This document shows positions 6,771-58,204 of a DNA stretch of 64,000 nucleotides, one piece after another. This DNA is from Malus domestica (lineage: Eukaryota; Streptophyta; Magnoliopsida; Rosales; Rosaceae). The position numbers were made by a program, and so were the translations under genes. The stretch covers positions 8,093,501-8,157,500 of the forward strand of contig NC_091677.1 of the NCBI RefSeq assembly GCF_042453785.1, read 5' to 3'. The notes below the pieces were generated by a model, which was not told the origin of the DNA, ran no database searches, and saw only the letters and a program-made list of their open reading frames with translations. Numbering within the stretch: the first letter of the stretch is position 1; every line of letters starts with the position of its first letter.

Positions 6771-8301
<1,531 letters not shown>

Positions 8302-12509: not shown

Positions 12510-14448
12510 CGGAGTATGATTTGTAGTATGGTAGTATGGTTTAACAACTCCATTTCAGCTAACATTGATGTGTTTAATAATGAAAGCACAACTACTAAGA
12601 TTGCACAATCTTCGGTTTTCTTTTTGGGTAATATTCCATTATTATTTAATTATTTTGCAGGAGTGTGGAAACTTCTCGAACTAAAGACCTTAGTGAGTGT
12701 AGGGGTATGAATAATTTCTAATCGTTAATGCATATGAACTCTATGGTTGAACTCACATGCATTTAGTTAGAAATCAATCATACGTGAGTGAGTGACTAAT
12801 ATAAGCATTTCTATTATGAAAACGGAAGTTCCTTTACAATTCTAAAATGTGTATGACACTAGCAAATGATTTATTTTTAAATTTTATGGTATGCTAGAAA
12901 ATGTGAAAAAAAAAATCAACAATTAGGGTAAGAGATGACGGAATAAAAGAATTTTGGTTTGAATCTTTGTGCGCATTTCCAATCAGATCAGGGAGAAATA
13001 CCACGTTAAACAATGACTCTAAAAACTTATGATACTAGAAAATATATTAACTTGTATCATTCCTCACACAAACTCAACCAAATCGAAATACCATGTTAGA
13101 CAAGACAAATAATAATGACTCTGAAAGCTAGCTGAAGTTGCTAAAAAAATGTCAACAATGTATATCAAACTTGCACCCTCCATCGCACGCATACCACATA
13201 TTACATACAAATAGGTGACCTGTATATGATGTGTATGAAGCCGACAAATTAAATCAAACTAACAATTAGCATCTTGGAATTTTGTGAGCCTTTATGAGGT
13301 ATAGTCCAATTTTGCTTGATTATTGACTTAGGTCCAATGGCTCATTGTACACATCAGCTTATTTTTATTCTCCTGCCAAATTTATCCCTAAAATGACTAA
13401 TTAAGTAATTAATATACTATTAATTTTTTTTTATTTATGATGATTTTTAATCCTTATTCATAGGATTATCTTATGCTTAATGATCGGATTAAGTATAGGA
13501 ATTTAAATCTCTTTAATATTCTTTCATCCTCCAAAACGTTTCCTATTCTTCCTTCTCTTTCTCCCTCACGATGTCTCCTTCTCATCCCTCACGATATCTT
13601 CTTTTTTTTCCCTCCTCCCTGCTCCCAAGCATAGATGATCAAAGATGTCCAACCTCAAATTTCTATAGTTGGTTTGATTTGTAGAATTTAGCCAATCTTG
13701 TATGCTTTGATTTTTTATTTTTTCATATTTCTCTGTTTTTTATTTTTTATTTTTTGTCTATTCTAAAACTCTTTCTTTCCTCTTTGTGTTTTACTCCCTC
13801 AACGCCATCTTTTTATTCATCATTTTCTATGGATCTTCTTGGTATATATATCAAAATTTTTTTCTAATCTACCTCTGTGTGTTTTAAACTACCTGTATCA
13901 TGGATAAATTGTATTATCTACCTATCACACATTATTGATAATCTATCTCAAGTTAATTGTGTTTGTCTACATGTATCATAGGTTATCTTGTTCTGTCTAC
14001 CTTATACCATGGATTAATAGTGCGCACACACACATTATTTCTTGATATTCTAATTCAAATTAAAAGTATTTATCTACCTATACCATAGGTTTTTGTTCAT
14101 TGCTTATATCACAGGGTTTTGTTCATAGTCTACCTATATCACATGTTTTTGTTCATAGGTTTTTTATATATCATTCATTTCAACTTAAGTCGTGGGTTTA
14201 TAGTCATACCCATGAACTTACTTTTAAATTTTTTCCTTAAATAGTGGCTAGATTGAGGAATTCGAAGATTCAAATTTGAGTAAATAATGCATAAATTAGG
14301 AAATTTAAATATATATTTATTTTTACTATAAAGGGAAAAACGGGAATAAGATGAGATCAATTAGACCTAAACTGGTAAGAACATTTAACTGGACTCAATC
14401 AAAAGTAGCTGATTTTTTTGGACTTGGATATAAATGCCCTAAAAAAAA
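12510..14448. other. AT-rich intergenic, no gene recognised
   Basis: No supported exon is present. Loose phrases such as CTACCTATATCACA recur between about 13870 and 14150 at irregular spacing. Weak inverted similarity between ~13300 and ~14390 (GTCCAA ... TTGGAC) hints at an old TIR element but is not enough to call. Confidence 0.35.
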
Positions 14449-14604
14449 GGGAACTTTAACGAAAAGCACCCGGTACTGTTCACTTTAACGAAAAACCACA
14501 TTTTTACACTAAAAAGTCAATCTTGGTACTATTCACTTTACCCTTTATTTTGTCCTTATCATTAAAACTTAAAGTTTTCAAGCCTTTTTCATTAGTTTTC
14601 CTTA
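14449..14604 (+). mobile_element. ~155 bp MITE family, copy A
   Basis: The copy starts GGGAACTTTAACGAAAAGCA and ends ATTAGTTTTCCTT. Its interior has CACTTTAACGAAAAACCACA and ACTAAAAAGTCAATC. The ends are imperfect inverted repeats of each other. Four further copies occur in the window. Confidence 0.7.
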
Positions 14605-17205: not shown

Positions 17206-17333
17206 TGTTGCCTTTGGCTTCTCTTTTTGTGTAGAAACTAGGTTCTTATCATCAGCTTAAGAGATTCTCATAATTTTTAAGTGCTTCTTTCCCCCTATTA
17301 TTTTATTGTTTTCATATGATGATTATAAAATAA

Positions 17334-17489
17334 AAGGAAAAGTAATGAAAATGGTTTGAAAAGTTTGAGTTTTAACGATAAAGACAAAATAAAAGGTAAA
17401 ATGAATAGTAACATGATTGACTTTTTAGTGTAAAAATATGATTTTTTGTTAAAGTGAACAGTACCGACAACTTTTCGTTAAAGTTCTCT
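17334..17489 (-). mobile_element. ~155 bp MITE family, copy C (inverted)
   Basis: This is the reverse complement of copy A. It starts AAGGAAAAGTAATGAAAATG and ends CTTTTCGTTAAAGTTCTC, with GATTGACTTTTTAGTG inside. Confidence 0.7.
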
Positions 17490-17909
17490 AAAATAAAAGC
17501 CCTCACAAATCTCAATTCATGATTCATGAACCACAATTATAGCTAAATTTTTGTTGTTCTTTTTCAAATGTCCCTCCAAATTCAAATTCTTCGATTTGAA
17601 AGTCTTTCCTCTTTTCTTTGTCCTCTCTTTACCAATAAATTTTAAATATTTTTCTGTTAATTAAATATGAGAATTAAGAAATGCTTGTGATTTACAATGT
17701 GCTTAATCGGAATGGTATGATAACTTTTTAGTTTTATTAGGTTCAATCCTAATCATATAGTTCAATAATACTAGAAATATCAGCTTATTCTTATTATACT
17801 AAATTTTGTTTATTTTTGTTAGTCTAGCATGAATTAGTCGTTAGCTTAATTAGGCGTGTAATAAGTTGAAACTACAAGAAAAAATGACTATGGAGACTAA
17901 TTTTTTTTT

Positions 17910-18060
17910 GGGAACTTTAACGAAAAGCACCCGATACTGTTCACTTTAACGAAAAACCACATTTTTACACTAAAAAGTCAATCATGGTACTATTCACTTT
18001 ACCCTTTATTTTGTCCTTATCATTAAAACTCAAAGTTTTCAAGCCATTTTCATTAGTTTT
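17910..18060 (+). mobile_element. ~155 bp MITE family, copy B
   Basis: It starts GGGAACTTTAACGAAAAGCA and ends TTTTCATTAGTTTT. It lies about 420 bp from copy C in the opposite orientation, so the two copies could pair in a transcript. Confidence 0.7.
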
Positions 18061-18173
18061 TTTTTTTCTCTCGGCCAAACTGTTGTTACGTCGGCTAATC
18101 TTTCCCCGATGAAATAATTTCGTGCGAAACTCGATCCAACAATATCCAATTTCAAAAAATTATGAGTTTAGAA

Positions 18174-28314: not shown

Positions 28315-29255
28315 TGTAGACATCGAAATTTCGGTAAATAAATGTTGACCGATAAATCAAAGTGTCAACGCTCATGTATTACATAAATTTTACACGTAGC
28401 GTGTGACTCAACGAAAATTGAAATGAGTTGGAAAAGTCATCAAATAGGACACGTGTCAACACCTGGCAGAAACGACTTATTTCATCTGGGATATTATATT
28501 CAAAGTTAGGCCTTGGAAAATTCTATAAATACAAGCCCATTTCATTCATTTAAGGAGGAACCAATTCATATTACACCTTGAAGCTCTGAAGCTCTGAAAC
28601 TCTGAAGCTCTCAAGCATCCAGGTTTCCGAAGAATCAAGAAAGCTCTCTTCGTTCTTCGTTCATCGTTCATCCAAGATCAAGCCCCAACGGCCCTTTGGA
28701 TCAACAATCATCCACCAATTCAAGATCAAGCCCCGACGGCTCTTGAAGAAAGCACCATCGTTCATCATCCGTTCATCCAAGATCAAGCCCCAACGGCCCT
28801 TTGGATCAACAACGTCGACAAATCCACACACATCCAACCGTTCTTCAAGATTAAGCCCAAAAGCCCTTGAAGATCTGTTCATCACTGTTTCTTCAAGATC
28901 AAGCCCAAAAGCCCTTGAAGATCCGCTCATCACCGTTATTCAAGATCAAGCCTCAAACGGCCCTTGAAGAAACATTCATCCTCAAGATCAAGCCCCAACG
29001 GCTCCTTGAAGATCCGCTCAAATCCACCTTCAAAGATCAAGCCCACGGCCCTTTGAAGAAACTTCCAAACAATTCATCCAAGATCAAGCCCCGACGGCCC
29101 TTGGATCAATGAAACATCCATAAATCAACACCTTACGGAGATTGAATCAGAGGATCAAAATAGAGAGAGATTGTAACCCAAAATCATCAAACACAAATAT
29201 TTGTTTGTGCGCGTTGTTCTTGTCTCATTCGTTTCAGGAATTTTCCGTGTTCACA
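28315..29255 (+). repeat. 5' LTR
   Basis: It is 941 bp long. TATAAAT at 28524-28530 is the likely core promoter. From about 28672 to 29105 it consists of nine imperfect units of 32-50 bp, each with CAAGATCAAGCC followed by ACGGCCCTTG(A/G). Several units can form a short stem (GATCAAGCC with GGCCCTTGGATC). Confidence 0.92.
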
Positions 29256-29258
29256 AAT

Positions 29259-29276
29259 TGGCACGCCCGGTGGGAC
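29259..29276 (+). other. Primer-binding site
   Basis: TGGCACGCCCGGTGGGAC starts 3 bases after the LTR end, where plant LTR elements carry an 18-base tRNA complement. I have not assigned the tRNA. Confidence 0.7.
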
Positions 29277-29334
29277 AATCTCTGCCTCTCATCTCTTTAT
29301 CCGTTCAAGAAATTCAAGCGCACTTCCAAAATTA

Positions 29335-31992
29335 ATGGCATCAAGGAAGGCTCAAACTGTTCCCGCAACCGGCGCAAAGAACAAAAGCGTCCTCGTCGCA
29401 ACTGGTGTCACTTTGGGCATCACGACTCGAAGCATGGCAATAGCTACTTCTGCCACCTCTTTCACCTCTGCATCAACTCTGCCAAGGGAACAAAAGCACC
29501 CAAGGCACGAGCCTTTGATCACCTTAGCCTCACTAAGGGCACCAAGGGGGGAAAGCCCAAGGAAATACTCCGAATCCATGCTCTCCGATGCCGATTCAAG
29601 CGACAGTTCAGCCATGCAAGTCATGACCATTGGAGCAACTTCAATCGATGAGCAGCTGGCTCAAATGAATGAAGCAATCACAAGGCTAACCCGAACTGTG
29701 GAAGAAAAAGACTTGCAAATTGCAGCACTAGTCAACCGACTGGAGGCGCAGGACGGCGATAAACCCGACCCAGAGGATGATCCACTAAAGGGAGGAGCTG
29801 GCGGAGACGAAGAACCCCCAATGAAGAAAATCGATGGGAAGCCGGAGCCAGACCAAGCAGCGGCACTCATGGGATCTCTTTCTATCCAGCAGCTGCAGGA
29901 GATGATCACCAACACCATCAAAGCACAGTACGAAGGGAGCTCACATACCTCTTTGTTCTACTCGAAGCCCTATTCCAAGAAGATTGATGCCCTAAGGATG
30001 CCAAGGGGTTATCAACCACCAAAGTTCATGCAGTTTGATGGAAAAGGAAACCCAAAGCAGCACGTTGCACATTTCGTCGAAACTTGCAACAACGCGGGAA
30101 CGGAGGGAGACTACCTCGCCAAGCAGTTTGTGCGCTTGCTGAAAGGAAATGCCTTTGAGTGGTACACGGACTTAGAGCCTGAGTCCATCAACAGTTGGGA
30201 GCAATTAGAGCGGGAATTCCTCAACCGCTTTTACAGCACCCGTCGCACTGTGAGCATGCTAGAGCTAACAAGCACAAAGCAGTGGAAGGACGAGCCAGTC
30301 ATTGACTACATCAACAGATGGCGCACTCTAAGCCTCGACTGTAAAGACAGGCTCTCGGAAACCTCTTCAATCGAGATGTGCATCCAAGGCATGCAATGGG
30401 GTTTGCAATACATCCTTCAAGGCATTAAACCGCGGACCTTCGAGGAATTGGCCACTCGCGCCCATGACATGGAGTTGAGCATCGCCCATCATGGGAAGAA
30501 AGAACCGATCGCCGATTACAAGAACGACAAAGTTCTTGGGACAAAGGTGGAAAAGGCTGCATGGAAACCCACCAAGGAAGCGATGACGGTCAACACATCT
30601 CCCGTCAAAATATCCACACGAGGCAAGGCGATTCAAGCCGAAGGCTTTCGTGATCAAGAGATGCGTAGACGCACTTTGAAGGAGCTTGAGGAGAAAACTT
30701 ATCCATTCCCCGACTCTGATGTGGTTGCCATGTTAGAAGACCTGTTGGGCAAGAAGGTGATCAGTTTGCCTGAGTGCAGACGGCCGGAAGAGATGAATCG
30801 TACCGATAACCCAAGATACTGTAAATTCCACCGCTTCATCAGTCATCCAACGGAAAAGTGCTTCGTACTAAAAGATCTCATCCTGAAGCTAGCACAACAA
30901 GGGGAAATCGAGCTTGACCTCGAAGACACGGCTGCGGCACACACTACTACTATCGTGTTTGAATCACTCGATCCTGTGCATCTCCGAAGCATGCATGATC
31001 ATTCCCGTCAATGTTCAAGTCACATGGCACCTCCTACACAACCATCACCGGGGGCAAGCAACCAAGATGCATCTACTGGTGATAAGAAAGGGTGGACATC
31101 GGTGACCTACAAAAAAACGAGGAAGCCAAGACCACAAGCCATAAGGCCAAAAGATAAGCCTAAACCCGCCCTTCGAACTTCAGTCTTCGAAAGGCTGAAT
31201 TATTCAAAACCTAGAATTGCAGCACTTGATCGCATCAGTGGTCGAGACCAAACTTCCGTCTTCAAAAGGCTTGAGACGCCAACACCTCAAAGATCAGTCT
31301 TTGAAAGGTTATCAAAACCCAAGAAACAAAGCGGCACAGCTAGATCTCCTCCGCAACGGTCGGCTTTGGACAGACTTGAAGAAACTAAGAAGCCTTCTAG
31401 AAACAGGAAGACAACACCAAAGGGAGAGAAGCTCGACAGTCTAACAGGAAAAGACGATGTTCAAAGCTTGATTCCTTCAAGGATGAAGCGCCAAGCAACT
31501 TTGGAAGTCGACACAAAAGGACCACTGAAGGTAAGGAGGCGCACCATCATCTACACCGGCCAACCTTCACGGCAACAAACCCAAGAGGACCGCACTGAAG
31601 AGAAGGCCCAAGAAGACAAAGAAGACGAAATCCTGGAAGAAGACGTCACTTTCAGCTCTGTCAACTCAAAATTTTCACCTCAATCGCCGGGGGCATGCTC
31701 CAAAAACATGCCAGTCAAGCCGAGTGAAGTTGAAAGATGGACTTATGTCACTCCGAAGAAATTGCACAAGAAGCATATGTCTTCTCCACAAGCTCACCAA
31801 TGGGAAAGGGGGCAAAACAGCTTCTGTTCACCTCTAGAACAATGTGAAAGTGTTGGAGATAATGAAACTTTGACACGAAGTTCATCCATCCCCATCACGA
31901 TGCGTGACATCTTCCCAGAAGACTTCTTCAACTACTCAGTCAAGGCTCCTTGCTATGAAGATTGCGAGGAACGACTCTCTCAGATTGCTTGA
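29335..31992 (+). CDS. Retrotransposon Gag, 885 aa
   Basis: This is an open frame without stops. It starts with a Ser/Thr/Ala-rich N-terminus. A retrotransposon gag domain spans about residues 220-380 and is marked by PPKFMQFDGKGNPKQHVAHF, GNAFEWYTDLEPESINSWEQ, FLNRFYSTRRTVSMLEL and DEPVIDYINRWR. A Cys/His block, YCKFHRFISHPTEKCFVLKD, replaces a classical CCHC knuckle, as in Tat-type Gag. The C-terminal third is basic and repetitive: SVFERL or SALDRL recurs about six times around residues 620-700. Gag would form the particle that packages the RNA. No protease or pol frame follows. An intact Gag in a pol-less element suggests it has been kept, or that the insertion is young. Confidence 0.9.
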   Translation: MASRKAQTVPATGAKNKSVLVATGVTLGITTRSMAIATSATSFTSASTLPREQKHPRHEPLITLASLRAPRGESPRKYSESMLSDADSSDSSAMQVMTIGATSIDEQLAQMNEAITRLTRTVEEKDLQIAALVNRLEAQDGDKPDPEDDPLKGGAGGDEEPPMKKIDGKPEPDQAAALMGSLSIQQLQEMITNTIKAQYEGSSHTSLFYSKPYSKKIDALRMPRGYQPPKFMQFDGKGNPKQHVAHFVETCNNAGTEGDYLAKQFVRLLKGNAFEWYTDLEPESINSWEQLEREFLNRFYSTRRTVSMLELTSTKQWKDEPVIDYINRWRTLSLDCKDRLSETSSIEMCIQGMQWGLQYILQGIKPRTFEELATRAHDMELSIAHHGKKEPIADYKNDKVLGTKVEKAAWKPTKEAMTVNTSPVKISTRGKAIQAEGFRDQEMRRRTLKELEEKTYPFPDSDVVAMLEDLLGKKVISLPECRRPEEMNRTDNPRYCKFHRFISHPTEKCFVLKDLILKLAQQGEIELDLEDTAAAHTTTIVFESLDPVHLRSMHDHSRQCSSHMAPPTQPSPGASNQDASTGDKKGWTSVTYKKTRKPRPQAIRPKDKPKPALRTSVFERLNYSKPRIAALDRISGRDQTSVFKRLETPTPQRSVFERLSKPKKQSGTARSPPQRSALDRLEETKKPSRNRKTTPKGEKLDSLTGKDDVQSLIPSRMKRQATLEVDTKGPLKVRRRTIIYTGQPSRQQTQEDRTEEKAQEDKEDEILEEDVTFSSVNSKFSPQSPGACSKNMPVKPSEVERWTYVTPKKLHKKHMSSPQAHQWERGQNSFCSPLEQCESVGDNETLTRSSSIPITMRDIFPEDFFNYSVKAPCYEDCEERLSQIA

Positions 31993-32235
31993 TGAACCAA
32001 AGCTCCTTGTTCGCATGAGCCTAAACTGCACGAACCAATGCTCCTTGTTCGCACGAGCCTAAACTGCACGAACCAAACGCTCCTGGTCTGCACGAGCATA
32101 AAAGGCAACACCAACGCTCCTGGTCTGCATGAGCATAAAAGGCGACACTAACGCTCATTGCCTGCACGAGCTAAAACTGCAACACGGCACCAAATGCTCC
32201 TTGTCTGCACGAGTTGAAACTGCAAATGGCACCAA
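31993..32235 (+). repeat. Tandem ~42 bp repeats after gag
   Basis: Five to six imperfect units carry GCTCCT(T/G)GT(T/C)(C/T)GCACGAGC followed by an AAACTGCA or AAAAGGC spacer. The inner part (GCTC ... GAGC) is self-complementary, so each unit may form a small stem-loop in the RNA. Confidence 0.8.
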
Positions 32236-32456
32236 AAGAAAATACCAAGAAAAAAAAATGTATTTTGAACTACGTTACGACTTGATCTCTTCTTTGGAGG
32301 GGTACGTAGGCAGCTCGAATGTTCAATTTTTCGAGTTCAGTCACATCAAAATTAAAAAAAAAAAAAAAGAATAAATGTTTTATTAAAGAATGTCAATTTT
32401 ATTACAAATTTATTCTGTTAAGAAAAATTTGCAATTTTCTTTGTACAGTTTCTTCG

Positions 32457-32492
<36 letters not shown>

Positions 32493-32554
32493 TACAATTT
32501 CTTCAAAAGAAAAAAGGAAAAAAGGAAATATATATATATATGTGTGTGTGTGTA
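32457..32554. repeat. Poly-A tract and TA/TG microsatellite
   Basis: A run of 34 A at 32457-32490 is followed by an A-rich stretch and then (TA)n(TG)n to 32554. It sits directly before the host-derived segment and could mark a template-switch or old poly-A junction. Confidence 0.8.
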
Positions 32555-32559
32555 GGCCC

Positions 32560-32870
32560 AGCAGTAACAAAAGGCACCAGCCCAGGCTCGGTTCTCTCTC
32601 GGTCCGTACACCCCTCAAGCCCAACATCGTCAAGCTCCACGTGGTGCGTGGCGAATGGGTAGGCATGGCCGTCATCGGAGTTCCAGTGAAGCTCGGCGCC
32701 GTTGCCGGAGCATGGAGGAGCCATCCGGCGCCGCTGAGCGAGTCGAGTCCGTTAGAAGACATCACAGGTCCCATTTTGAGGCGGTGCTACACTTCTAGAC
32801 CTCCGTACCTCACCACTTGCCACCCGCGCTCTCTCTCTCCTTTTTGGTTTCACAAATTTCAGGTATAAGA
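32560..32870. other. GC-rich segment, probably captured host sequence, unidentified
   Basis: The base composition jumps from A-rich to GC-rich and the minus strand is open over about 100 codons in two frames. It ends next to a GA-rich leader that precedes the malic enzyme ATG. It could be the malic enzyme 5' UTR, a fifth captured fragment, or both. I do not recognise a protein in it. Confidence 0.4.
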
Positions 32871-32947
32871 GAGAGAGACAGAGAGAAGGAGTCAAGCAAG
32901 GAGAGCTCATCGATCCTAAAGACTCTCCCCTTCACAAATCCGTCGCC

Positions 32948-34008
32948 ATGATGTCCTTGAATAGAAGCTGTTTTCTGGGGAAACCGGGCATTGCTGGGTC
33001 TTCAAGCCCATTCTCTCAGAGCCAGAAGAGGCGGTCAACGTCGCTAAAAGTGGTGGCTGTGGTCCCAAAAGTCCGGACAAGCGACCGAAACGGTAGCGTT
33101 ATGATGGAGAACCCATTGCAGGACGTGAAGGCCGAATCCGAGGTGTTTGAGCTGAAATCTACCGTCCATGGTGGGGTACAAGACGTGTACGGTGAGGATA
33201 CTGCCACCGAGGACCAACTCGTCACGCCCTGGAGTGTCTCGGTTGCTAGTGGATATACATTGATACGATCTCCACACCACAACAAAGGTCTTGCTTTCAC
33301 AAAGAAAGAGAGAGATGCCCACTACTTGCGTGGTCTTCTTCCCCCAATTGTTATTTCTCAAGAACTTCAGGTTAAGAAAATGATCAACAGTATCCGTCAG
33401 TATCAAGTTCCACTGCAGAAGTATATCGCTATGATTGATCTTCAGGGGAGAAATGAAAAGCTATTCTACAAGCTTCTTATTGAACATGTTGAGGAATTAC
33501 TTCCGGTTGTCTATACTCCTACTGTCGGTGAAACTTGCCAGAAATATGGAAGCATCTTTACGCAACCACAGGGTCTTTTCATAAGTTTGAAAGAAAAATG
33601 CAAGATTCTTGAAGTATTAAGGAACTGGCCTGAGAAGAATATTCAAGTCATTGTTGTCACTGATGGAGAACGGATCCTAGGGCTTGGGGATCTTGGCTGT
33701 CATGGAATGGGTATTCCTGTGGGTAAACTTGCTCTATACACGGCACTTGGAGGAGTTCGTCCTTCTGCTTGCTTGCCTGTAACCATTGATGTTGGTACAA
33801 ACAATGAGAAGCTGTTGAATGATGAGTTCTACATAGGGCTGAGGCAAAAGAGGGCTACTGGGCAGGAATATGCCGAACTCCTACAAGAGTTCATGACTGC
33901 AGTCAAGCAGAATTACGGGGAGAAAGTTCTCGTTCAGTTTGAAAACTTTGCAAACCATAATGCGTTTGAACTGCTTGCAAAGTATGCCTCAACTCATCTT
34001 GTTTTTGA
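32948..34008 (+). pseudogene. NADP-ME: Captured chloroplast NADP-malic enzyme cDNA fragment
   Basis: The frame starts with a Ser/Arg-rich chloroplast transit peptide (about 1-60, with [20 protein letters not shown]). It continues into the malic enzyme N-terminal domain. Key motifs are [29 protein letters not shown] with the catalytic Tyr near residue 189, [14 protein letters not shown] (237-250) and [16 protein letters not shown]. It breaks at THLVF, just before the FNDDIQGT motif that opens the NAD(P)-binding domain. The intact enzyme decarboxylates malate to pyruvate, making NADPH and CO2. Plant NADP-ME genes have many introns; none is present here, so the template was a spliced RNA. The fragment lacks the cofactor domain, so the encoded protein could not be an active enzyme. 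Its coding frame is otherwise open. Confidence 0.9.
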
Positions 34009-34443
34009 ATGACGACGTCCACCAAAACGGCACCGTCTCAGACACCCCAGCAGAGCAATGCCAAGCCTGGTCTAAGGAAGCCCGTGTTCACCAAGGTCGA
34101 GTTGCTCAAGCCGGAGACCAGCGGCCACACGATCGTCGCCAAGGTCCTGGGCTCGAACCCTGTGCTGCAGAAGGGCCGATCGGTGTCGCAGCACCTTCGC
34201 CAGACTCGAATCTCTGAGTGCTTGATTGGGGACGAGACTGGGACCATTCTCTTCACTGCCAGGAACGATCAAGTTGACTTGATGAAGCCTGGTGCAACTG
34301 TAATTCTCCGCAATGCAAGGATTGACATGTTCAAGGGATCGATGAGGCTAGCAGTTGATAAATGGGGACGTATTGAGGTCACTGAACCTGCAAACTTTGT
34401 AGTCAAAGAGGACTCGACATCCGGAACTCCTCGCAGAAGCTGA
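34009..34443 (+). CDS. Captured OB-fold nucleic-acid-binding protein (At4g28440-like)
   Basis: A 144-codon open frame starts at its own ATG, fused directly to the malic enzyme fragment. It shows [60 protein letters not shown] and [13 protein letters not shown]. This matches the small plant single-domain OB-fold proteins related to the SOSS-B/hSSB family, which are ~150 residues long. The last ~15 residues are replaced by read-through into the next fragment (STSGTPRRS). There are no introns. The frame is intact and nearly full length, so it is the captured piece most likely to make a folded protein if transcribed. Its native C-terminus is missing. Confidence 0.8.
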
Positions 34444-34620
34444 CGTGCCGCCTCATCGCCTCCTCCGTGCTGATCTTCCTCGACGACCTCGAGTTCTCGT
34501 CCTTGATCGCCTCAGCGCAGAGCCCACAAATCCACCGGTCCTGGTGCCTCTCCTTCACCGTCGCTACGTATGCCGGCGTGCACTCCTCCGTCAAACCGCA
34601 GCAGTAGCACTTCACCTCCG
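34403..34620 (-). pseudogene. Captured DUF1677 protein fragment, antisense
   Basis: On the minus strand the frame gives EVKCYCCGLTEECTPAYVA, DRWICGLCAEAIKDE and [17 protein letters not shown]. This is the Cys-rich core of the plant DUF1677 family, whose function is unknown. The orientation is opposite to gag, malic enzyme and the OB-fold piece. The N-terminus is cut off where the RPB3 fragment begins, and the C-terminus is cut off at the OB-fold junction near 34410. Confidence 0.75.
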
Positions 34621-34703
34621 ACCGGGCCATGAGCATACGCTTCTCACGTGACTGCGACGCCTGCGACGGTGATGGACAGTGCGAGTTCTGCTCCGTCGAG
34701 TTT
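34611..34703 (+). pseudogene. NRPB3: Captured RPB3 (RNA polymerase II subunit) fragment
   Basis: The plus strand reads TSDRAMSIRFSRDCDACDG then DGQCEFCSVEF. This is the conserved Cys-rich zinc loop of the plant RPB3/NRPB3 subunit. After the Phe codon the similarity stops and unrelated sequence follows (HPPCCLDFVHPC). Only about 30 codons remain. It is the fourth recognised host gene in the element. The related Pol IV/V form cannot be excluded. Confidence 0.7.
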
Positions 34704-34782
34704 CATCCTCCATGCTGCCTCGACTTCGTCCATCCCTGCAAATTCCCCATCCCGTCATCAGAATTTATACAAAAAAAATATA

Positions 34783-35044
34783 ATTAAAAAAAAAAAAAAA
34801 AAAAAAAGGTGGTGGAGCAAAACAAAGTGGTGCTGTCACCACGTGAAAAAAAGGGGGTGCATCAGGCACCATGTGCAAAGAAAGAAAAAATAAATAAATA
34901 AAAAATAAAAGAATAAAAAAAAATATATATATAATAATTATAAAGTGTTTTGGGTGCTGGATCAACACCATTCTAAAAAAAAATATATATATATGTATAT
35001 AAAAAATGTTTAAACTTTGGTGCGGCTGGCACCATGATTAAAGT

Positions 35045-35081
<37 letters not shown>

Positions 35082-35280
35082 TTAAATTAAATTAAATTAA
35101 AATAAAAATTAAAAAATGTTTTATCGTTGGTGCGTCTGGCACCATGATTAAAAAAAAAAAAAAAAGCATTAAGAGAAATAAAAGTCCATTTTATTTATTT
35201 TTCTAGAAATTTTACATAAATTTGCATTATACATACATTTAATAAAAAAAAAAAAAATCAAATCAAATCAAATTTACAAG
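34783..35280. repeat. AT-rich block with recurrent GGTGC hairpins
   Basis: Poly-A tracts (about 34784-34807 and 35151-35165), (TA)n at 35047-35075 and an ATTAA pentamer repeat at 35075-35102 alternate with five short palindromes of the form GGTGC-5 nt-GCACC or close variants (34827, 34856, 34953, 35019, 35129). Confidence 0.75.
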
Positions 35281-35289
35281 AGGGGATCT

Positions 35290-35901
35290 TCAAGGACGAT
35301 CAGGTGGCGCCTCAGTACTTGGCGGAACCCCAGGAGAAGGAGGCACTGAAGGTTGATCATTTGAGGCTTCATTACGCGGTACAGCCCCAGAAGAAGAAGG
35401 CAAATGCTGCTGGAACAAACCCACAAACCTCTGATGATCAAGTAAAATCTGACCATCAGATTCCTGCATCTGGTCAATCTTCCTCTTCATGTTTGTCGCA
35501 TAGCTATGTGCGAGCTTATGCAACTGTTTATTCTCCTGCTTGAGCCCTCTAATCTCCTGTTTGAGACTCATCACTTCAGCCGCCAATGATTCAACTTGAC
35601 GGATTCGAGCAAATAGGCGTTGGGCCATATTAGACACAGAACCTGCACACTGCACACTGAGAGCCAGAGAATCCTTAACAGCCAACTCATCAGACCGTTT
35701 GGAAAGTAGTCTGTTATCTCTGGGAGTGACAAGGTTCCGGGCCACCACCGCAGCGGTCATATCATTCTTCACCACCGAATTCCCAACGGTAAGAGGACCA
35801 GTAGGGGATATGAAGGATGGGCGCCATATGTTGTCTGGAGAAGGCGGAACTGCCTCTTCACCAAGATTCAAGTCAAAACGACGGTCGGAGGGTCCAGACA
35901 T
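35290..35901 (-). CDS. Antisense ORF of the retroelement, coiled-coil protein
   Basis: A 203-codon frame on the minus strand starts at the Met of MSGPSDRRFDLNLGEEAVPP. A longer start at 35940 adds 13 residues. The middle has heptad Leu spacing (QVESLAAEVMSLKQEIRGLK, then ENKQLHKLAHSYATNMKRK), which predicts a coiled coil. The C-terminus is Pro/Ser-rich. Tat-branch Gypsy elements are known to carry extra antisense ORFs near the 3' LTR, and this one fits that position. Its role is unknown. FDLNLG resembles plant EAR repression motifs but does not meet the LxLxL or DLNxxP pattern. The frame is intact. Confidence 0.7.
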   Translation of the reverse strand: MSGPSDRRFDLNLGEEAVPPSPDNIWRPSFISPTGPLTVGNSVVKNDMTAAVVARNLVTPRDNRLLSKRSDELAVKDSLALSVQCAGSVSNMAQRLFARIRQVESLAAEVMSLKQEIRGLKQENKQLHKLAHSYATNMKRKIDQMQESDGQILLDHQRFVGLFQQHLPSSSGAVPRNEASNDQPSVPPSPGVPPSTEAPPDRP

Positions 35902-36116
35902 TTTCAAAGTGTTGAAGAAAGAAGAGATCGGACAAATCAAGATCTTAGAAGTGCAAGAAGGGAGTTTTCACAAGCGAAAATTCAAGTGTGCTTTGAAACG
36001 AACTGCATGCCTCTATAAAAATCAGCACTCAACGGGATTTCAGAGATCGAAGAGGCGAGCTCAGAATTCGAAGAGGCCATTCAAAAATCGAAGAGGCAAG
36101 CTCAGAAATCGGAGAA

Positions 36117-36300
36117 GCATCTTGCTTTTCCAGACGCGTCGGCACCCGTCACACGCAAACTCAGCTTTGCGAAAATCACGGGCAATTTGTCGAAGTGCCG
36201 ATCCCAGATATCGAAGAGGCGCCAGTCTTTTTCAGCCTCGTCAACACCTGTCATATGCACACTCAACTTTGCGCAAATCACGGGTAATTTGTCGAAGATT
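36117..36300. repeat. Two ~90-110 bp tandem units upstream of the antisense ORF
   Basis: Both units carry CACTCAACTTTGCGCAAATC or a close variant, then CACGGG(C/T)AATTTGTCGAAG. They lie where the promoter of the antisense ORF would be. Confidence 0.65.
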
Positions 36301-36859
36301 TTCGGTGAAGGAGAAAACACGTGAAGTTTACTGTTCAATCACGCGTTAGTTGCCGACACGAGTGAAATAATAGTACCTCTACAGGTATTAAGGGACCTCC
36401 TATAACTGTCCACCTTCACCTTCCATAGCAAGGCAGACATACAGAGCCTTTCTTCATCTCTAAAAATGTTTTCCCAACGAAACCTCTCGAGTAATTCAGT
36501 GTTCCTTATTCCTTGGGGTACCTCTGCAAGCCAATGACTCCAAAGCAAAAGTATCTCATATCACCAGGGTAGAAAGCAAGAGTATCTCATATCATGCACT
36601 ATCCCTGTCCTTTCCTTTGTCCTTGTTCCTACCTACAAAGACAAGGATAAAGAAAACAATATGCCGGAACTTCCACTCAAACTCGGGTAAGGATCCGACT
36701 GCTTGGAACCCTTCCCTGATTGCCTACCTAGCACTGCTCTCGAGTACTCGCCTTCCACTGCTGCTGTACTTTCAAAGAAGCTGTCACATCTGCTTGGAGG
36801 ACAGATAAGGCAAGTGAAAATGATACCTTGCAGCATGTGGAGACAAGGTGCAGAAGGAA

Positions 36860-37045
36860 CAAGCAGAGAAGAATGCGGTCTGCACGATCAACTCAGCAGA
36901 AGGAGTCCGAACTGAGGAACTCGAGAAGCTGCCACATCTGCCTAAAGAAACAAGCAGAGAATAATGCAGCATGCACAGTCAACTCAGCAGAAAGAGTCTG
37001 AGATGAAGAACTCGAGAAGATGCCGCATCTGCCCGAGGACGGTGA
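36860..37045. repeat. Two ~90 bp tandem units
   Basis: Each unit carries AACAAGCAGAGAA, TCAACTCAGCAGAA and AACTCGAGAAG(C/A)TGCC. The flanking region 36330-36860 has no recognised gene. Confidence 0.7.
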
Positions 37046-37284
37046 ACTCGTTTTGACCCTCAAATTCTTGGGTCGACTTACTAGGCGTTGTGGGCTGCAC
37101 GTGCCGATTCACCACCCTTGAATCAAATCCTTAAAGATCAAGTCACCAACTGGAAGAAGAGTTCATCAATCTTGAAGATCATACCGTTGACCAAACTGCT
37201 CAGGTGTGAATTAGAAAGATTGAACAGAGCAACAAGTCGTCACCTTCATCTCGTGCCTGCTTGTCATGTGTTCGAGTTAACCTT

Positions 37285-37810
37285 CAAGAATCAAGCCTCA
37301 ACGGCCTTTGAATAAGTTTCCAGCCAAATTCAAGATCAAGCCTCGACGGCCCTTGAGGAAATCACAAGTCCGATTCAAGATTAAGTGTCTACCACCATTG
37401 AATCAAAACCTAGTTCAAGAATAAGCTGTGGAAAATCAACAATTGGAGGAATCCAGAAAATCCTCCAACCCAGTTCAAGATCAAAGCTGTGGAAAGTCAA
37501 CAAGCGCAACAAAATACGTGCCGATTCACCCACTACCAAAGCCAAAGATCATCTACCACATGAAGCTCCTTGTGGTCCAAATTCAACCTTCAAGATCAAG
37601 CCTCGACGGCCCTTGAAGAAATTTCAAACAAAAGTTCAAGAACAAGCCTCAACGGCCCTTGAAGAAATCTCAAGCCCAATTCAAGATCAAGCCTCAAACG
37701 GCCCTTGAAGAAATCTCAAGCCCAATTCAAGATCAAGCCTCAACGGCCCTTGAAGAAATCTCCAGCCCAATTTAAGATCAAGCCTCGACGGCCCTTGGAT
37801 CGACGTCTAC
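37285..37810 (+). repeat. LTR-type repeat units in the 3' untranslated part
   Basis: About nine units of the form TTCAAGATCAAGCCTCAACG followed by GCCCTTGAAGAAAT repeat at 40-50 bp spacing, best conserved from 37590 onward. They are related to the units inside the LTRs but lie outside them. Confidence 0.85.
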
Positions 37811-37870
37811 AGTAAGGGACTTCAAAACGCATCTCCTACACGTGACAAGCACATGTATATGACGCGCCTT

Positions 37871-37884
37871 GAAGTGGGGGCATT
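37871..37884 (+). other. Polypurine tract region
   Basis: GAAGTGGGGG directly precedes CATT and the 3' LTR start, the expected position of the plus-strand primer. Confidence 0.75.
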
Positions 37885-38823
37885 TGTAGACATCGAAATT
37901 TCGGTAAATAAATGTTGACCGATAAATCAAAGTGTCAACGCTCATGTATTACATAAATTTTACACGTAGCGTGTGACTCAACGAAAATTGAAATGAGTTG
38001 GAAAAGTCATCAAATAGGACACGTGTCAACACCTGGCAGAAACGACTTATTTCATCTGGAATATTATATTCAAAATTAGGCCTTGGAAATTTCTATAAAT
38101 ACAAGCCCATTTCATTCATTTGGGGGAACCAATTCATATTACACCTTGAAGCTCTGAAGCTCTGAAACTCTGAAGCTCTCAAGCATCCAGGTTCCCGAAG
38201 AATCAAGAAAGCTCTCTTCGTTCTTCGTTCATCGTTCATCCAAGATCAAGCCCCAACGGCCCTTTGGATCAACAATCATCCACCAATTCAAGATCAAGCC
38301 CCGACGGCTCTTGAAGAAAGCACCATCGTTCATCATCCGTTCATCCAAGATCAAGCCCCAACGGCCCTTTGGATCAACAACGTCGACAAATCCACACACA
38401 TCCAACCGTTCTTCAAGATTAAGCCCAAAAGCCCTTGAAGATCTGTTCATCACTGTTTCTTCAAGATCAAGCCCAAAAGCCCTTGAAGATCTGCTCATCA
38501 CCGTTATTCAAGATCAAGCCTCAAACGGCCCTTGAAGAAACATTCATCCTCAAGATCAAGCCCCAACGGCTCCTTAAAGATCCGCTCAAATCCACCTTCA
38601 AAGATCAAGCCCACGGCCCTTTGAAGAAACTTCCAAACAATTCATCCAAGATCAAGCCCCGACGGCCCTTGGATCAACGAAACATCCATAAATCAATACC
38701 TTACGGAGATCGAATCAGAGGATCAAAATAGAGAGAGATTGTAACCCAAAATCATCAAACACAAATATTTGTTTGTGCGCGTTGTTCTTGTCTCATTCGT
38801 TTCAGGAATTTTCCGTGTTCACA
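37885..38823 (+). repeat. 3' LTR
   Basis: It is 939 bp long, nearly identical to the 5' LTR and includes TATAAAT at 38094-38100. It ends GTGTTCACA, followed by the AATTT duplication. Confidence 0.92.
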
Positions 38824-54706: not shown

Positions 54707-57476
54707 CTAATTTTGTTGGAGTCTGCTGGGAAACACATTCTCATCATGAACCACATGTCTTGTTATCAATAGCTTCTGAGTTTGTTCATGATAACATATA
54801 ACACCCTTATATCCTAGTTCATAGCCAACAAAAACACATAGCGATGCTCTTGGTTGCAACTTGTTATTATTATAAGGCCTGATGTAAGGATATACAGTAG
54901 TGCCAAATATTTTCAGGTTTTGAAGTTGAGGTTTAACCCCAAATAACAACCGATAAGGAGACTTCATTCACAAAATCCTACATGGCATCCTATTTATTAA
55001 AAACACAGAATGAGCACAAGCATGAAACCCCAAGGTTTGAGGTAACTGAGCAGTTGTCATCAAAGTTATAGCTGTTTCTATGATATGTCTATGTTTTCTT
55101 TCAGCAATTCCATTTTGCTGAGGTGTGTATGGACATGAAACCATATGAAAGATTCCCTGAGTTTGCAGAAAACCCTTAAACTGATTACTATTAAACTCTC
55201 CACCCCCATCTGTATGCAAGCATTTAATTCTAACATCAAACTGAGTATAAACGAAATGATAGAAATTCTGAAAGATACCAAACACTTCTGATTTATTTAT
55301 CAAGGGAAAAATCCATACATGTCTTGTAAACTCATCCACAAAACTCACATAATATCTAAACCCTTCTACAGACTTAGTTAGTGAAGGACCCCAGAGATCC
55401 GAATGGACTTTTTGAAATGGAAAACTACATTGTTCTTTCCTATCTAAGAAAGGTTGTCTAGACATTTTCCCAGATATACAATAGGAACATACATGCTGTG
55501 AATCATCAGAAGCACTAACTATATCAGATTGCTGCAACATAACAGAGAGAACTTCATTACTAGGATGGCTTAATCTTTGATGCCACACTGTTGACTTAAC
55601 CTTCTGACCAAGCAAAGTAGTTGACTTTTGAGCTAGAGAAACTAAATTCTTTGAAAACATCTTGACCGAAATCTAAAACAACTCACCATCACTGCTCCTT
55701 CTGTGGTATATTATAGCCTTGGTTACCTTGTCATGCACATAGAAGTTAGTATCATCACATATGAACCAGCAATAGTTGTCTTTGCACATTTGTTTGATAG
55801 ATAAAAGACTAACAACAATAGTTGGAACATGTAAGACATTTCTCAAAAGTAATGAATGAGGTAATGTCTTCAAACATGTAGAACCAATATGTTTGATTTG
55901 CAAACCTTCACCATTGCCAATTGTTATTTTATCATTGCCTTCATATGGAAAAATCTGCTGCAAAGAATTGAGATCTGCTGTCATGTGATGTGATGCTTCA
56001 GTGTCAATGATCCATGAATCATTAGGAAGAAAGTTGGCTGGAGCTTGAGCTTGCATGGCAGTTAACGTAGGAGCAGGTGCAGAACCTTGATAGGCAAAAT
56101 TGTTCCTATGATGACAATCTAATGCACTGTGTCCTCGCTTGCCACAGATTTGACACTCAAGAATTGATCCATTTGAACTCAGATTGGTAGACCTCTTCCA
56201 GCAATTTGGAGTTGTATGTCCCTTCTTGGAACATATCTGACATTCAGGGACAATATTCGGCCTAGTTTCAGTGTTTCCAGACCATGACTGCCAATTTCCA
56301 CCATTATGTCCTCCACCTTAGGTATTCCCACGATTACCACCATAGTTTGATGATCTAAAATTACCATTACCATTTGGTTTTGTACCATAGACATTTCTTG
56401 TACCAATATTGGAATTAGGATACTGTCTCTGTGCATTAGTATTCCCAACAAAGCCATATGCATTAGAAAAATCAGGATAGAATGAAGGTTGAGGATGCAC
56501 TATAGGAAACTGATTACTTGGAAATAGTGATGTATTAGAGAAATCAGGATACACCGGAGGTTGAGGCTGCACCCTAAGAGACTGAGTACTAGGAAATGGT
56601 GATGGATACTGAATATGAGAAACTGGCATTGGTAGTGATGGATGCATTACAGAATTAGATGATGATGATGCTCCCTGATTTGGCACTCCAAAAGACGGAG
56701 TTGCATTCGAAATCCGTGTAAGAATCTCTCCAGTACTATACATAACCTCATCAGAATTACTTGATGACCCCTGTGCCATTGTAGATTGTGAAGAAGAAGC
56801 AACATTCCCTTGCACATACATTCCAGAAATTTTTGAGATAAACCACTCACCACAGACTTAGCCTCCCTTTCTGCACATAGTAACTGCTCTCAAAATTCCC
56901 TTAAGGACATAGTATTGTCTCTTGTGTATATCATTGTTCTAATCTCAGAATATTCCCTTGGTAAACCAGATAAAGCAGCAACAATGAAATCATTATCAGT
57001 TACAAATTCCCCCGCAGCAATCAACTGATCTTTAATATTTCTAAGTTTAGACAGATATTGATCAATAGAGTCACTACCCTCTGTGTGGTCTGAAATTCAG
57101 TCTTTAACGTATTCACCCTTGCTTTAGAAACATAAGCATACCTATCTTGAAGATTTGTCCAGGCCTCATGAGCAGTCCTAGATCCCAAAACATGCTCAAT
57201 AGACTCATCAGTCAATGTAGCAATTAACAAACTCAAGAGAGCAAGATCAACAGCTTCCCATTCTGTATATGCCTTAGAGATTTCATTTGTAACATCACGA
57301 TCAGTACTAACCACAAATTTTGGTGGAGGTGAAAGTGACCCATCAAAGTGATCAAACAACTTATATCCTTTGAGAACATATTTGAACTGAAATACCCATT
57401 TCGAAAAATTCTTGTCATTCAACTTAATTGTCAACATTCCCAAAAGGCCTTCAATTTTTACAGATGAAGATGCCAT
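54707..57476 (-). pseudogene. Copia gag-protease-integrase, broken
   Basis: Gag starts MASSSVKIEGLLGMLTIKLN (57476) and has a UBN2-type region (WEAVDLALLSLLIATLTDES). A frameshift near 57080 and a stop near 56885 break it. Two CCHC-type knuckles follow (CQICSKKGHTTPNCWK, CQICGKRGHSALDC). The protease motif reads DTEASHHMT, where the family has DTGASHH, so a catalytic-loop Gly is lost. The GAG-pre-integrase zinc block (HQRLSH ... CSYCISGK) and the integrase D, D, E residues (HSDLWGP, LHTDGGGEF, NGIAERKHR) are present. A TGA at 54967-54965 interrupts the frame before KSPYRLLFG. The copy ends near 54710; reverse transcriptase and RNase H are missing. Confidence 0.88.
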
Positions 57477-58204
57477 CGCTATGGTCTAGATTAACGGTCT
57501 TATCAAGAAACAACTCTCTCCTCAACACTTCAAAAAGAACAAAAATAACAAGAAATGCTTCAAATTTCAACTAACAGTGGTCACAAAAATTCAACTATTC
57601 GTCACAAACATTCAAAGAAATGGCTTCGTGCCCTCAAATTTCAACAACTCTTCAAAGAAATTCACAGAAATGGCTTTGTGCCCACAATCTTCAATTAACT
57701 AATCTTTTACAAACATTCACATAAATGGCTTCATGCCCAACAATACGATCAATCTTGAAATGACTGTGTACCACAAACAAACAGTAATGGCTTCGTGCCG
57801 CAAACAAGCTAAATCTACTACTCCACATAATTAAAGCATGATAGAGAATCGAAAAGAATAACCTGATTCGCACCAACTCAAAACTCCAGAAGAAAAAAAA
57901 TTCCAATACGTCGACGAACCCCAAGATGATCAAACCTTCAGCACCGATAATCCTGAGATAACCCAGCCCACAACAAAACCGATGGCTCTTGATACCATAT
58001 TAACACTATGAATCTGAAGAAATGAAAGGTTTACAGAGAGAATAGCAAAAGAGAAAAAGAAAGAGAGAGAGAAATGTAGAGACTTTTCAGATTACTTTCA
58101 TTAGGTCTTAATGCTTACAAGCTCTGCTATATATAGCATTTTACACTTGTTATCTCCTCTTCATCCACCTAACTAACTTTTAACCATTCAACTAACTACC
58201 AACA
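54708..58204 (-). mobile_element. 3'-truncated Copia retrotransposon
   Basis: On the minus strand it has a 5' LTR (about 58204-58000, starting TGTTGGTAGTTAG, with a TATATATA core near 58130). The primer-binding site TGGTATCAAGAGCC lies at 57997-57984, followed by a leader, then gag-pol up to the integrase. No 3' LTR is present, so about half the element was lost. It lies wholly between the CACTA ends. Confidence 0.8.
57617..57805 (-). repeat. Short repeats in the Copia leader
   Basis: AATGGCTTCGTGCC or a one- to two-base variant occurs four times (about 57617, 57668, 57722 and 57786) at 51-64 base spacing, within longer similar units (CACAAACATTCA before the motif). Confidence 0.65.

Follow-up and report, generated by a model that had tools for sequence, protein, structure and literature searches.

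TR-GAG elements have two long terminal repeats (LTRs) and gag as their sole retroviral open reading frame (ORF); the remaining functions may come from a related full element, and one TR-GAG element has been shown to transpose in Arabidopsis (PMC8704663 and PMC9784723, each in part). The LTR element Bs1 of maize carries parts of three host genes, and Veju and BARE-2 are cited for template switching between RNAs (both in the covered sections of a 2026 review, PMC13317346); template switching is also described for Triticeae elements (PMC1950507, in part). Antisense ORFs are conserved in Grande, RIRE2 and Retand, and transduced sequences are usually in the sense orientation, such ORFs being present in one or a few copies (parts of PMC7264820). 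Here we describe an element that occupies positions 28315-38823 of a 64,000-nucleotide stretch of the apple genome (Malus domestica, GCF_042453785.1, NC_091677.1, forward strand, 8,093,501 to 8,157,500; hereafter the window), and the family to which it belongs, whose members carry differing spliced host-gene fragments in one slot. We consider it highly probable that this is a large gag-only LTR family of the TR-GAG type, derived from a Ty3/Gypsy element by loss of pol, and that its cargo is acquired by repeated template switching onto co-packaged mRNAs.

The window element and its host-gene mosaic

The features of the element are listed in Table 1. It is flanked at both ends by the target duplication AATTT, and the LTRs, duplication, primer binding site and purine tract proposed in a sequence-only reading of the window were all recovered by alignment and by reading of the sequence, the primer site as a putative one. 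Between the two LTRs, 939 bases align, with 10 substitutions and 2 gap columns (Kimura two-parameter distance 0.0108), in keeping with the recent origin proposed in that reading. A substitution rate of 1.3e-8 per site per year was used for LTR dating, by which the insertion would be about 0.4 million years old, and older under slower rates. A repeat of about 45 nt (CAAGATCAAGCC..ACGGCCCTTGAAG) is common to the LTR (28667-29105) and the internal 3' region (37281-37801).

The cargo sits 3' of gag and of the 38-nt tandem-repeat block. A search with positions 32541-34760 against the same genome (651 Mb, 19 contigs; 40 of 95 candidates scored) located donors on C17, C11, C15, C10 and C14. The malic enzyme piece encodes the N-terminal part of the protein (Pfam 7.8e-77, PDB 3.9e-153), and is followed by an Ssb-like OB fold (8.9e-44), a DUF1677 match on the minus strand (9.2e-30) and an RPB3 piece that matches subunit 3 of Pol II/IV/V (8.5e-15). 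The joined pieces of these four host genes, DUF1677 being reversed, are thus present as the sequence-only reading had them; its lower bound of four is exceeded, with at least five donors contributing when an 85-bp piece is included. The intervals 32655-32670, 32756-32828 and 34712-34730 had no donor in this search.

The malic enzyme and OB pieces derive from spliced RNA. The exons of the malic enzyme donor are 94–100% alike to the element, from which 10 donor introns are missing, and the piece lies at a distance K of 0.018 from the C17 donor versus 0.068 from its C9 duplicate. The OB donor is 98–100% alike, with one donor intron of 1,694 bp missing from the element. The two pieces are therefore intronless, as had been proposed, and GT..AG is found at the aligned cut, in the element orientation, at 9 of the 11 intron positions.

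Neighboring pieces overlap by a few nucleotides, at 34013-34016 (malic enzyme|OB), 34408-34412 (OB|DUF1677) and 34612-34619 (DUF1677|RPB3). The first two of these joins occur in two copies, the window element and one at C3:3509582-3511724 (the sister, L001 and L021), which is flanked on either side by a target duplication of its own, ATGTC. Of 1052 aligned bases in the sister LTRs 6 differ, with a further 44 gap columns; gag of the sister is intact, and a 60-bp deletion extends across its DUF1677|RPB3 join. Because the joins recur in a second copy, on another chromosome and with another target duplication, the chimera has transposed, and an assembly artefact, the earlier reading's second ground for doubt, is ruled out. 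The DUF1677|RPB3 join is present in six copies (window, C16, C6, two on C9, and C4; all 15 candidates scored) and the other joins in two, so that DUF1677 and RPB3 were joined first and the OB and malic enzyme pieces were added in the window lineage. The proposal of an undescribed family based on the four-gene chimera is thus borne out as to the existence of a family, which is neither defined by these four genes nor the product of a single event. We note that LTR length varies by copy (941 bp in the window, 1052 and 1096 in the sister), and that the sister and window LTRs align poorly because of this difference, though gag and the 3' parts differ by about 1%.

The malic enzyme ORF is open over 354 amino acids, as would be expected if the window chimera were a new functional gene, either a shortened malic enzyme or a fusion, kept by selection. 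We regard this as extremely unlikely: the ORF ends at the OB join, the match covers only the N-terminal malic domain, and a premature stop in the malic frame of the sister rules out a functional malic enzyme.

A family with one slot

An exact 28-mer spanning the purine tract and the start of the 3' LTR occurs 565 times (297 + 268) in the genome, and its reversed control not at all. In an LTR search (40 of 2688 candidates scored), 15 same-strand LTR pairs were found, 14 of them at 8.4–10.0 kb start to start and one at 16.8 kb. Further places were drawn in three ways. First, similarity to the cargo gave nine members (set 1: L009-L014, L016, L018, L020); three other places found in this manner (L015, L017, L019) have no LTR, gag or 3' parts. 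Secondly, 12 places were taken by LTR pairing only (set 2: L022-L033), among which L026 and L030 are near duplicates, L030 being dropped from counts. Thirdly, 10 places were picked at even spacing from the first 100 3' ends in the list (set 3: L044-L053).

The side of the slot next to the antisense ORF is present in 21 of 21 places of sets 1 and 2, with gag also present in set 1, and the slot edges are found in seven of the 10 set 3 places. In 28 of the 31 further places, gag and a conserved antisense ORF are thus separated by a slot that mostly holds different sequence. As cut, the slots measure 1.6–3.3 kb (some end with the fetched stretch) and share sequence only in subsets; in many copies they are bordered by A-rich and microsatellite tracts.

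Slot contents were identified from stop-to-stop ORFs of at least 60 amino acids above an entropy filter (277 sense and 225 antisense), using Pfam at E ≤1e-5, in 21 slots (window, set 1, and set 2 without L030) and the 10 set 3 stretches. With overlapping models and shared cargo collapsed by hand, and one Retrotrans_gag match left out, these 31 stretches hold 29 host genes in sense and four in antisense orientation (one-sided binomial ~6e-6 on the assumption of independent captures, which may not hold for all of them). Each of the 11 distinct set 2 slots contains at least one named host domain. Set 3 as a whole also gave FBPase and pectinesterase matches, without assignment to a copy, and L044, L051, L052 and L053 are left with no assigned domain. 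Segment L045:276-1250 encodes the NAD-binding part of malic enzyme, so that malic enzyme occurs in two members as different parts. A WD40 fragment of L022 recurs in one piece at C15:45150034, C5:26933643 and C5:25851559, the first of which is near a gag match and is probably another family member sharing the WD40 cargo.

The spliced origin of the cargo extends beyond the window. L014 contains a chain of six fragments, each overlapping its neighbor, touching it or separated from it by 6 nt; a C12 gene in the chain lacks five intron-like gaps and pectate lyase lacks one. In L022 two are missing in the PC-esterase fragment, one in the nodulin-like and three in the WD40 fragment, and two are missing in L018. 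L032 joins a condensing enzyme to a decarboxylase, the matched parts having no split. Altogether the donors are split at 25 intron-like gaps in four slots (window 11, L014 6, L022 6, L018 2), and 13 of the 17 gaps checked show GT..AG in the element orientation. These missing gaps and the strong sense bias both argue against capture at the DNA level, whether through ectopic repair or through nested insertion, routes that have been put forward for Pack-type DNA transposons and Helitrons. Short microhomologies arise in end joining too, and four of the fragments are antisense, both of which such capture would accommodate; we nevertheless hold it to be very unlikely.

Most donors are on different chromosomes, and a second, more diverged copy is usually present elsewhere. 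Read-through transduction, in which pieces come from genes beside an element that is transcribed past its end, is treated at length for plant retrotransposons in sections of PMC13317346. In this family the cargo is internal at one site, each copy draws on several donor chromosomes, and the pieces are partly reversed, all of which makes read-through a very unlikely source.

Microhomology was scored at 10 of 11 joins examined in the window, L014 and L032. Exact runs common to both sides measure 4, 5, 8, 9, 7, 1, 0, 5, 9 and 3 nt, the first 9-nt run becoming 4 nt if an alternative donor is used. Random donor joins average 0.68 nt, and the observed sum was reached in 17 of 100000 random sets, or in 19 if the 4-nt run is used. 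Processed pseudogenes made by long interspersed nuclear elements (LINEs), inserted successively into the slot of an existing element, would likewise yield intronless pieces; however, most of the 11 joins abut or overlap by a few nucleotides, the pieces are internal parts of mRNAs, and no poly(A) tract is seen at the inspected joins, and we give this origin hardly any credence.

Probable loss of pol and a proposed route of capture

Among the ORFs of the window element that were scanned, Pfam detected no pol domain, and no protease, RT (reverse transcriptase), RNase H or integrase family is among the matches (E 1e-5, lists complete) of all 502 ORFs. A pol-bearing relative is located at C9:21600534-21618237 (17.7 kb), corresponding to the one LTR pair 16.8 kb apart, and its LTRs are 93–94% identical to those of the window. 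Its first frame contains gag, a protease-like stretch (by eye) and then RT motifs; the RT matches Ty3 at 1.5e-29, and RNase H and integrase follow. Its gag shares 79% amino acid identity with the window gag over the first 606 residues (615 positions), and window gag residues 550-760 match (48%) a stretch shortly before the RT of the relative, after the protease-like region. With the RT and RNase H/integrase of the relative as queries, tblastn (E 1e-5) found nothing in the window slot or in any of the 31 member stretches that were fetched. The element is therefore gag-only, as the sequence-only reading had it, and pol is present in a relative with similar LTRs. A search for a pol-bearing partner by way of gag (51 of 9932 candidates scored) gave no open frame longer than 1151 amino acids.

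Downstream of pol, the relative has a repeat block, an antisense block, and then an antisense ORF of the window type (86% amino acid identity). The antisense block (L054:5235-7999, plus strand, antisense in the relative) is a block of antisense ORFs standing where the gag-only members have the slot; its PDB matches are only at chance level, and by eye it may resemble a plant mobile domain. Most simply, the gag-only family would be a pol-deleted derivative whose slot stands at the place of this antisense block. The proposal that host fragments had taken the place of pol is accordingly correct in that pol is absent and cargo lies within the element; the cargo occupies the antisense-block position, pol having been lost further upstream. 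The relative is the likely enzyme source and ancestor, and it or its kin would supply enzyme in trans.

Ratios of nonsynonymous to synonymous substitution (dN/dS) for gag are 0.17–0.47 in nine window pairs, four of which include one or two stops, and 31 of the 51 scored genomic gag matches, the window included, have no internal stop. The antisense ORF is free of stops over the aligned part in 10 other copies (in L011 over 162 of 203 residues), though the ATG-started ORF is shorter in L018, and its dN/dS is 0.16–0.46 in nine pairs, while the tenth, the very close sister pair with 6 changes, gives 1.58. For both ORFs, dN/dS is thus well below 1.

Template switching from spliced RNA had been named as the likely route of capture, and the missing introns, sense bias and microhomology point the same way. 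Element RNA would enter particles along with cellular mRNAs, its own Gag being the probable packaging protein, and pol-bearing relatives would provide in trans the reverse transcriptase that copies it. While making the minus strand, the enzyme, when within the slot, would jump to spliced mRNAs at short microhomologies, might jump again, and would then return to the element RNA upstream; the A-rich and microsatellite tracts at the slot borders could stall it. Descendants would inherit the mosaic, swap parts with other element RNAs, and gain further pieces, and antisense pieces would require either another type of switch or a transcript of the antisense strand. We infer the co-packaging, the strand and timing of the jumps, the supply of enzyme in trans, and the reason that switches fall in the slot.

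Exchange among element RNAs would fit the distribution of gag types and cargo. The C-terminal part of gag in 10 copies is of two types, five near the window (K 0.009–0.043) and five distant from it (0.21–0.24), and both types carry DUF1677 and/or RPB3 pieces at K 0.02–0.04 to the window. L010, of the distant type, carries the joined DUF1677/RPB3 pair, the sister has 88 bp of this cargo at K 0, L020 has a 77-bp piece at K 0.08, and L018 has none.

Several observations weigh against template switching in a pol-deleted family. The 565 ends probably include other element types, some perhaps pol-bearing relatives, and three of the 10 set 3 places (L048, L049, L050) lack a recognizable slot; L049 is 95% alike over 219 bp to the antisense block of the pol-bearing relative, and L050 probably holds the one Retrotrans_gag match of set 3 (gag-like by eye). 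Pfam named only five host genes in this evenly spaced sample. At four of the 17 introns checked there is no GT..AG at the aligned cut, and simple minus-strand jumping to mRNA would not give the antisense DUF1677, Exo70, histone and pectinesterase pieces. One join has a 6-nt gap and no microhomology, another of the 11 yielded no score, and the 9-nt run in L032 comes from a gapped alignment read by eye where the ungapped script gave 0. The pol of the relative lies in more than one frame, so that this copy is interrupted. Finally, the dN/dS pairs all include the window and hence are not independent, and the selection on gag and the antisense ORF may have acted in pol-bearing ancestors.

A stronger version of the template-switching account, which we hold to be somewhat less likely than not, is that the family is a dedicated collector of cellular mRNA, with selection keeping Gag and the antisense protein and the slot acting as a hot spot at which reverse transcription repeatedly captures fresh host mRNAs. 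If so, one family keeps making multi-gene fusions, as an RNA counterpart of Pack-MULEs and Helitrons.

Table 1. Features of the window element (positions in the window) and slot contents of other family members
Feature	Position	Strand	Remarks
5' LTR	28315..29255	+	941 bp, with array of ~45-nt repeat
Putative primer binding site	29259..29276	+	TGGCACGCCCGGTGGGAC; read from sequence
gag ORF	29335..31992	+	885 aa, intact; Retrotrans_gag E 1.4e-13
38-nt tandem repeat x6	31994..32225	+	Block common to family members
5' edge of cargo slot	32541..32654	+	94.7% to family member L018
85-bp piece, fifth donor	32671..32755	+	93% to C14:23696610-23696694; gene not named
Malic enzyme 5' part	32829..34016	+	Upstream stretch and N-terminal coding part; donor C17:21761416-21765032(-)
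Ssb-like OB-fold gene piece	34009..34412	+	Donor C11:35196828-35198925
DUF1677 gene piece, reversed	34408..34619	-	99% to C15:3274870-3275081
RPB3 piece	34612..34711	+	97% to C10:17152870-17152968
3' slot edge and A/T-rich stretch	34731..35150	+	Edge motif recurs in many copies
Antisense ORF	35290..35901	-	203 aa, coiled-coil-like
Internal array of ~45-nt repeat (as in LTR), then purine tract	37281..37884	+	
3' LTR	37885..38823	+	939 bp; AATTT directly after
L014 chain			C17/C15-matching gene, RPB3, C12 gene, another C12 gene, pectate lyase, histone-fold (H4 by eye)
L022 slot			PC-esterase, nodulin-like
L023 slot			Decarboxylase
L024 slot			Hydrolase, WD40
L025 slot			Exo70, F-box
L026 slot			NmrA
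L027 slot			Cytochrome b5
L028 slot			Photolyase
L029 slot			RING
L031 slot			RING-variant
L032 slot			FAE1-type condensing enzyme, decarboxylase
L033 slot			Histone
L045 (set 3)			Malic enzyme NAD-binding domain
L046 (set 3)			WRKY
L047 (set 3)			HATPase

Neighboring features and known systems

Elsewhere in the window, ORFs at 6771-8298 (plus strand) resemble the signal recognition particle 54-kDa protein by eye, and successive ORFs at 54971-57485 (minus strand) look like a decayed Copia-type element with zinc knuckles and an integrase-like part, also by eye. Three arms of about 155–166 nt (14448-14603, 17332-17497 and 17901-18066), inverted and direct and 87–97% alike, may make up a small inverted-repeat element.

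Gene capture by plant LTR elements has been discussed mostly from scattered cases, and a family with hundreds of copies offers many joins. Its fixed slot, nameable donors and pol-bearing relative would make read-through, DNA repair and template switching testable against each other by counts of introns, orientation, microhomology and donor expression. If transcribed, the family would also give rise to multi-gene fusions and to small RNAs directed at host genes. Its ingredients are known, and their combination was not found in the open-access literature of one library, a description elsewhere, for example in repeat databases, being possible. The sections of PMC13317346 that were covered contain no family of this slot-cargo kind, and neither 'gene fragment' nor 'captur' occurs in the covered parts of a Rosaceae survey (PMC11197308).

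Several known systems share parts of this organization. LTR-captured genes of rice and sorghum (PMC3726574) are likewise host genes inside LTR elements, some of them copied along; that study surveys whole-genome LTR sets, and its covered parts feature no single family with a fixed multi-gene slot. Retand elements have a long 3' internal region, antisense ORFs, tandem repeats and some non-autonomous members (PMC11963269, in part), and the window element likewise has an antisense ORF before the 3' LTR and tandem repeats there. However, the 203-amino acid antisense ORF has no match to TRP28 (PF04195) at E 0.1 (Pfam did not cover the antisense block of the relative); on this evidence we do not assign the family to Retand. 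Pack-MULEs and Helitrons also form families whose copies hold different host gene fragments (sections of PMC13317346), but these are DNA transposons, whereas the present family consists of LTR elements with spliced-RNA cargo. Its LTR ends and intronless cargo set both aside as an identification, no search for Helitron ends having been made.

The pol-bearing relative has an RT closest to the Ty3 type and the order RT, RNase H, integrase, as in Ty3/Gypsy elements. Like Bs1, the window element contains several intronless host genes inside one LTR element; Bs1 is a single chimera in the review sections covered (PMC13317346), whereas the members of the apple family carry differing mosaics. The likeness to TR-GAG, as described in parts of PMC8704663 and PMC9784723, lies in the paired LTRs and target duplication of the window and sister copies, the gag ORF, the absence of pol domains and the existence of a pol-bearing relative, and the apple family differs in having a slot with a host-gene mosaic and a conserved antisense ORF.

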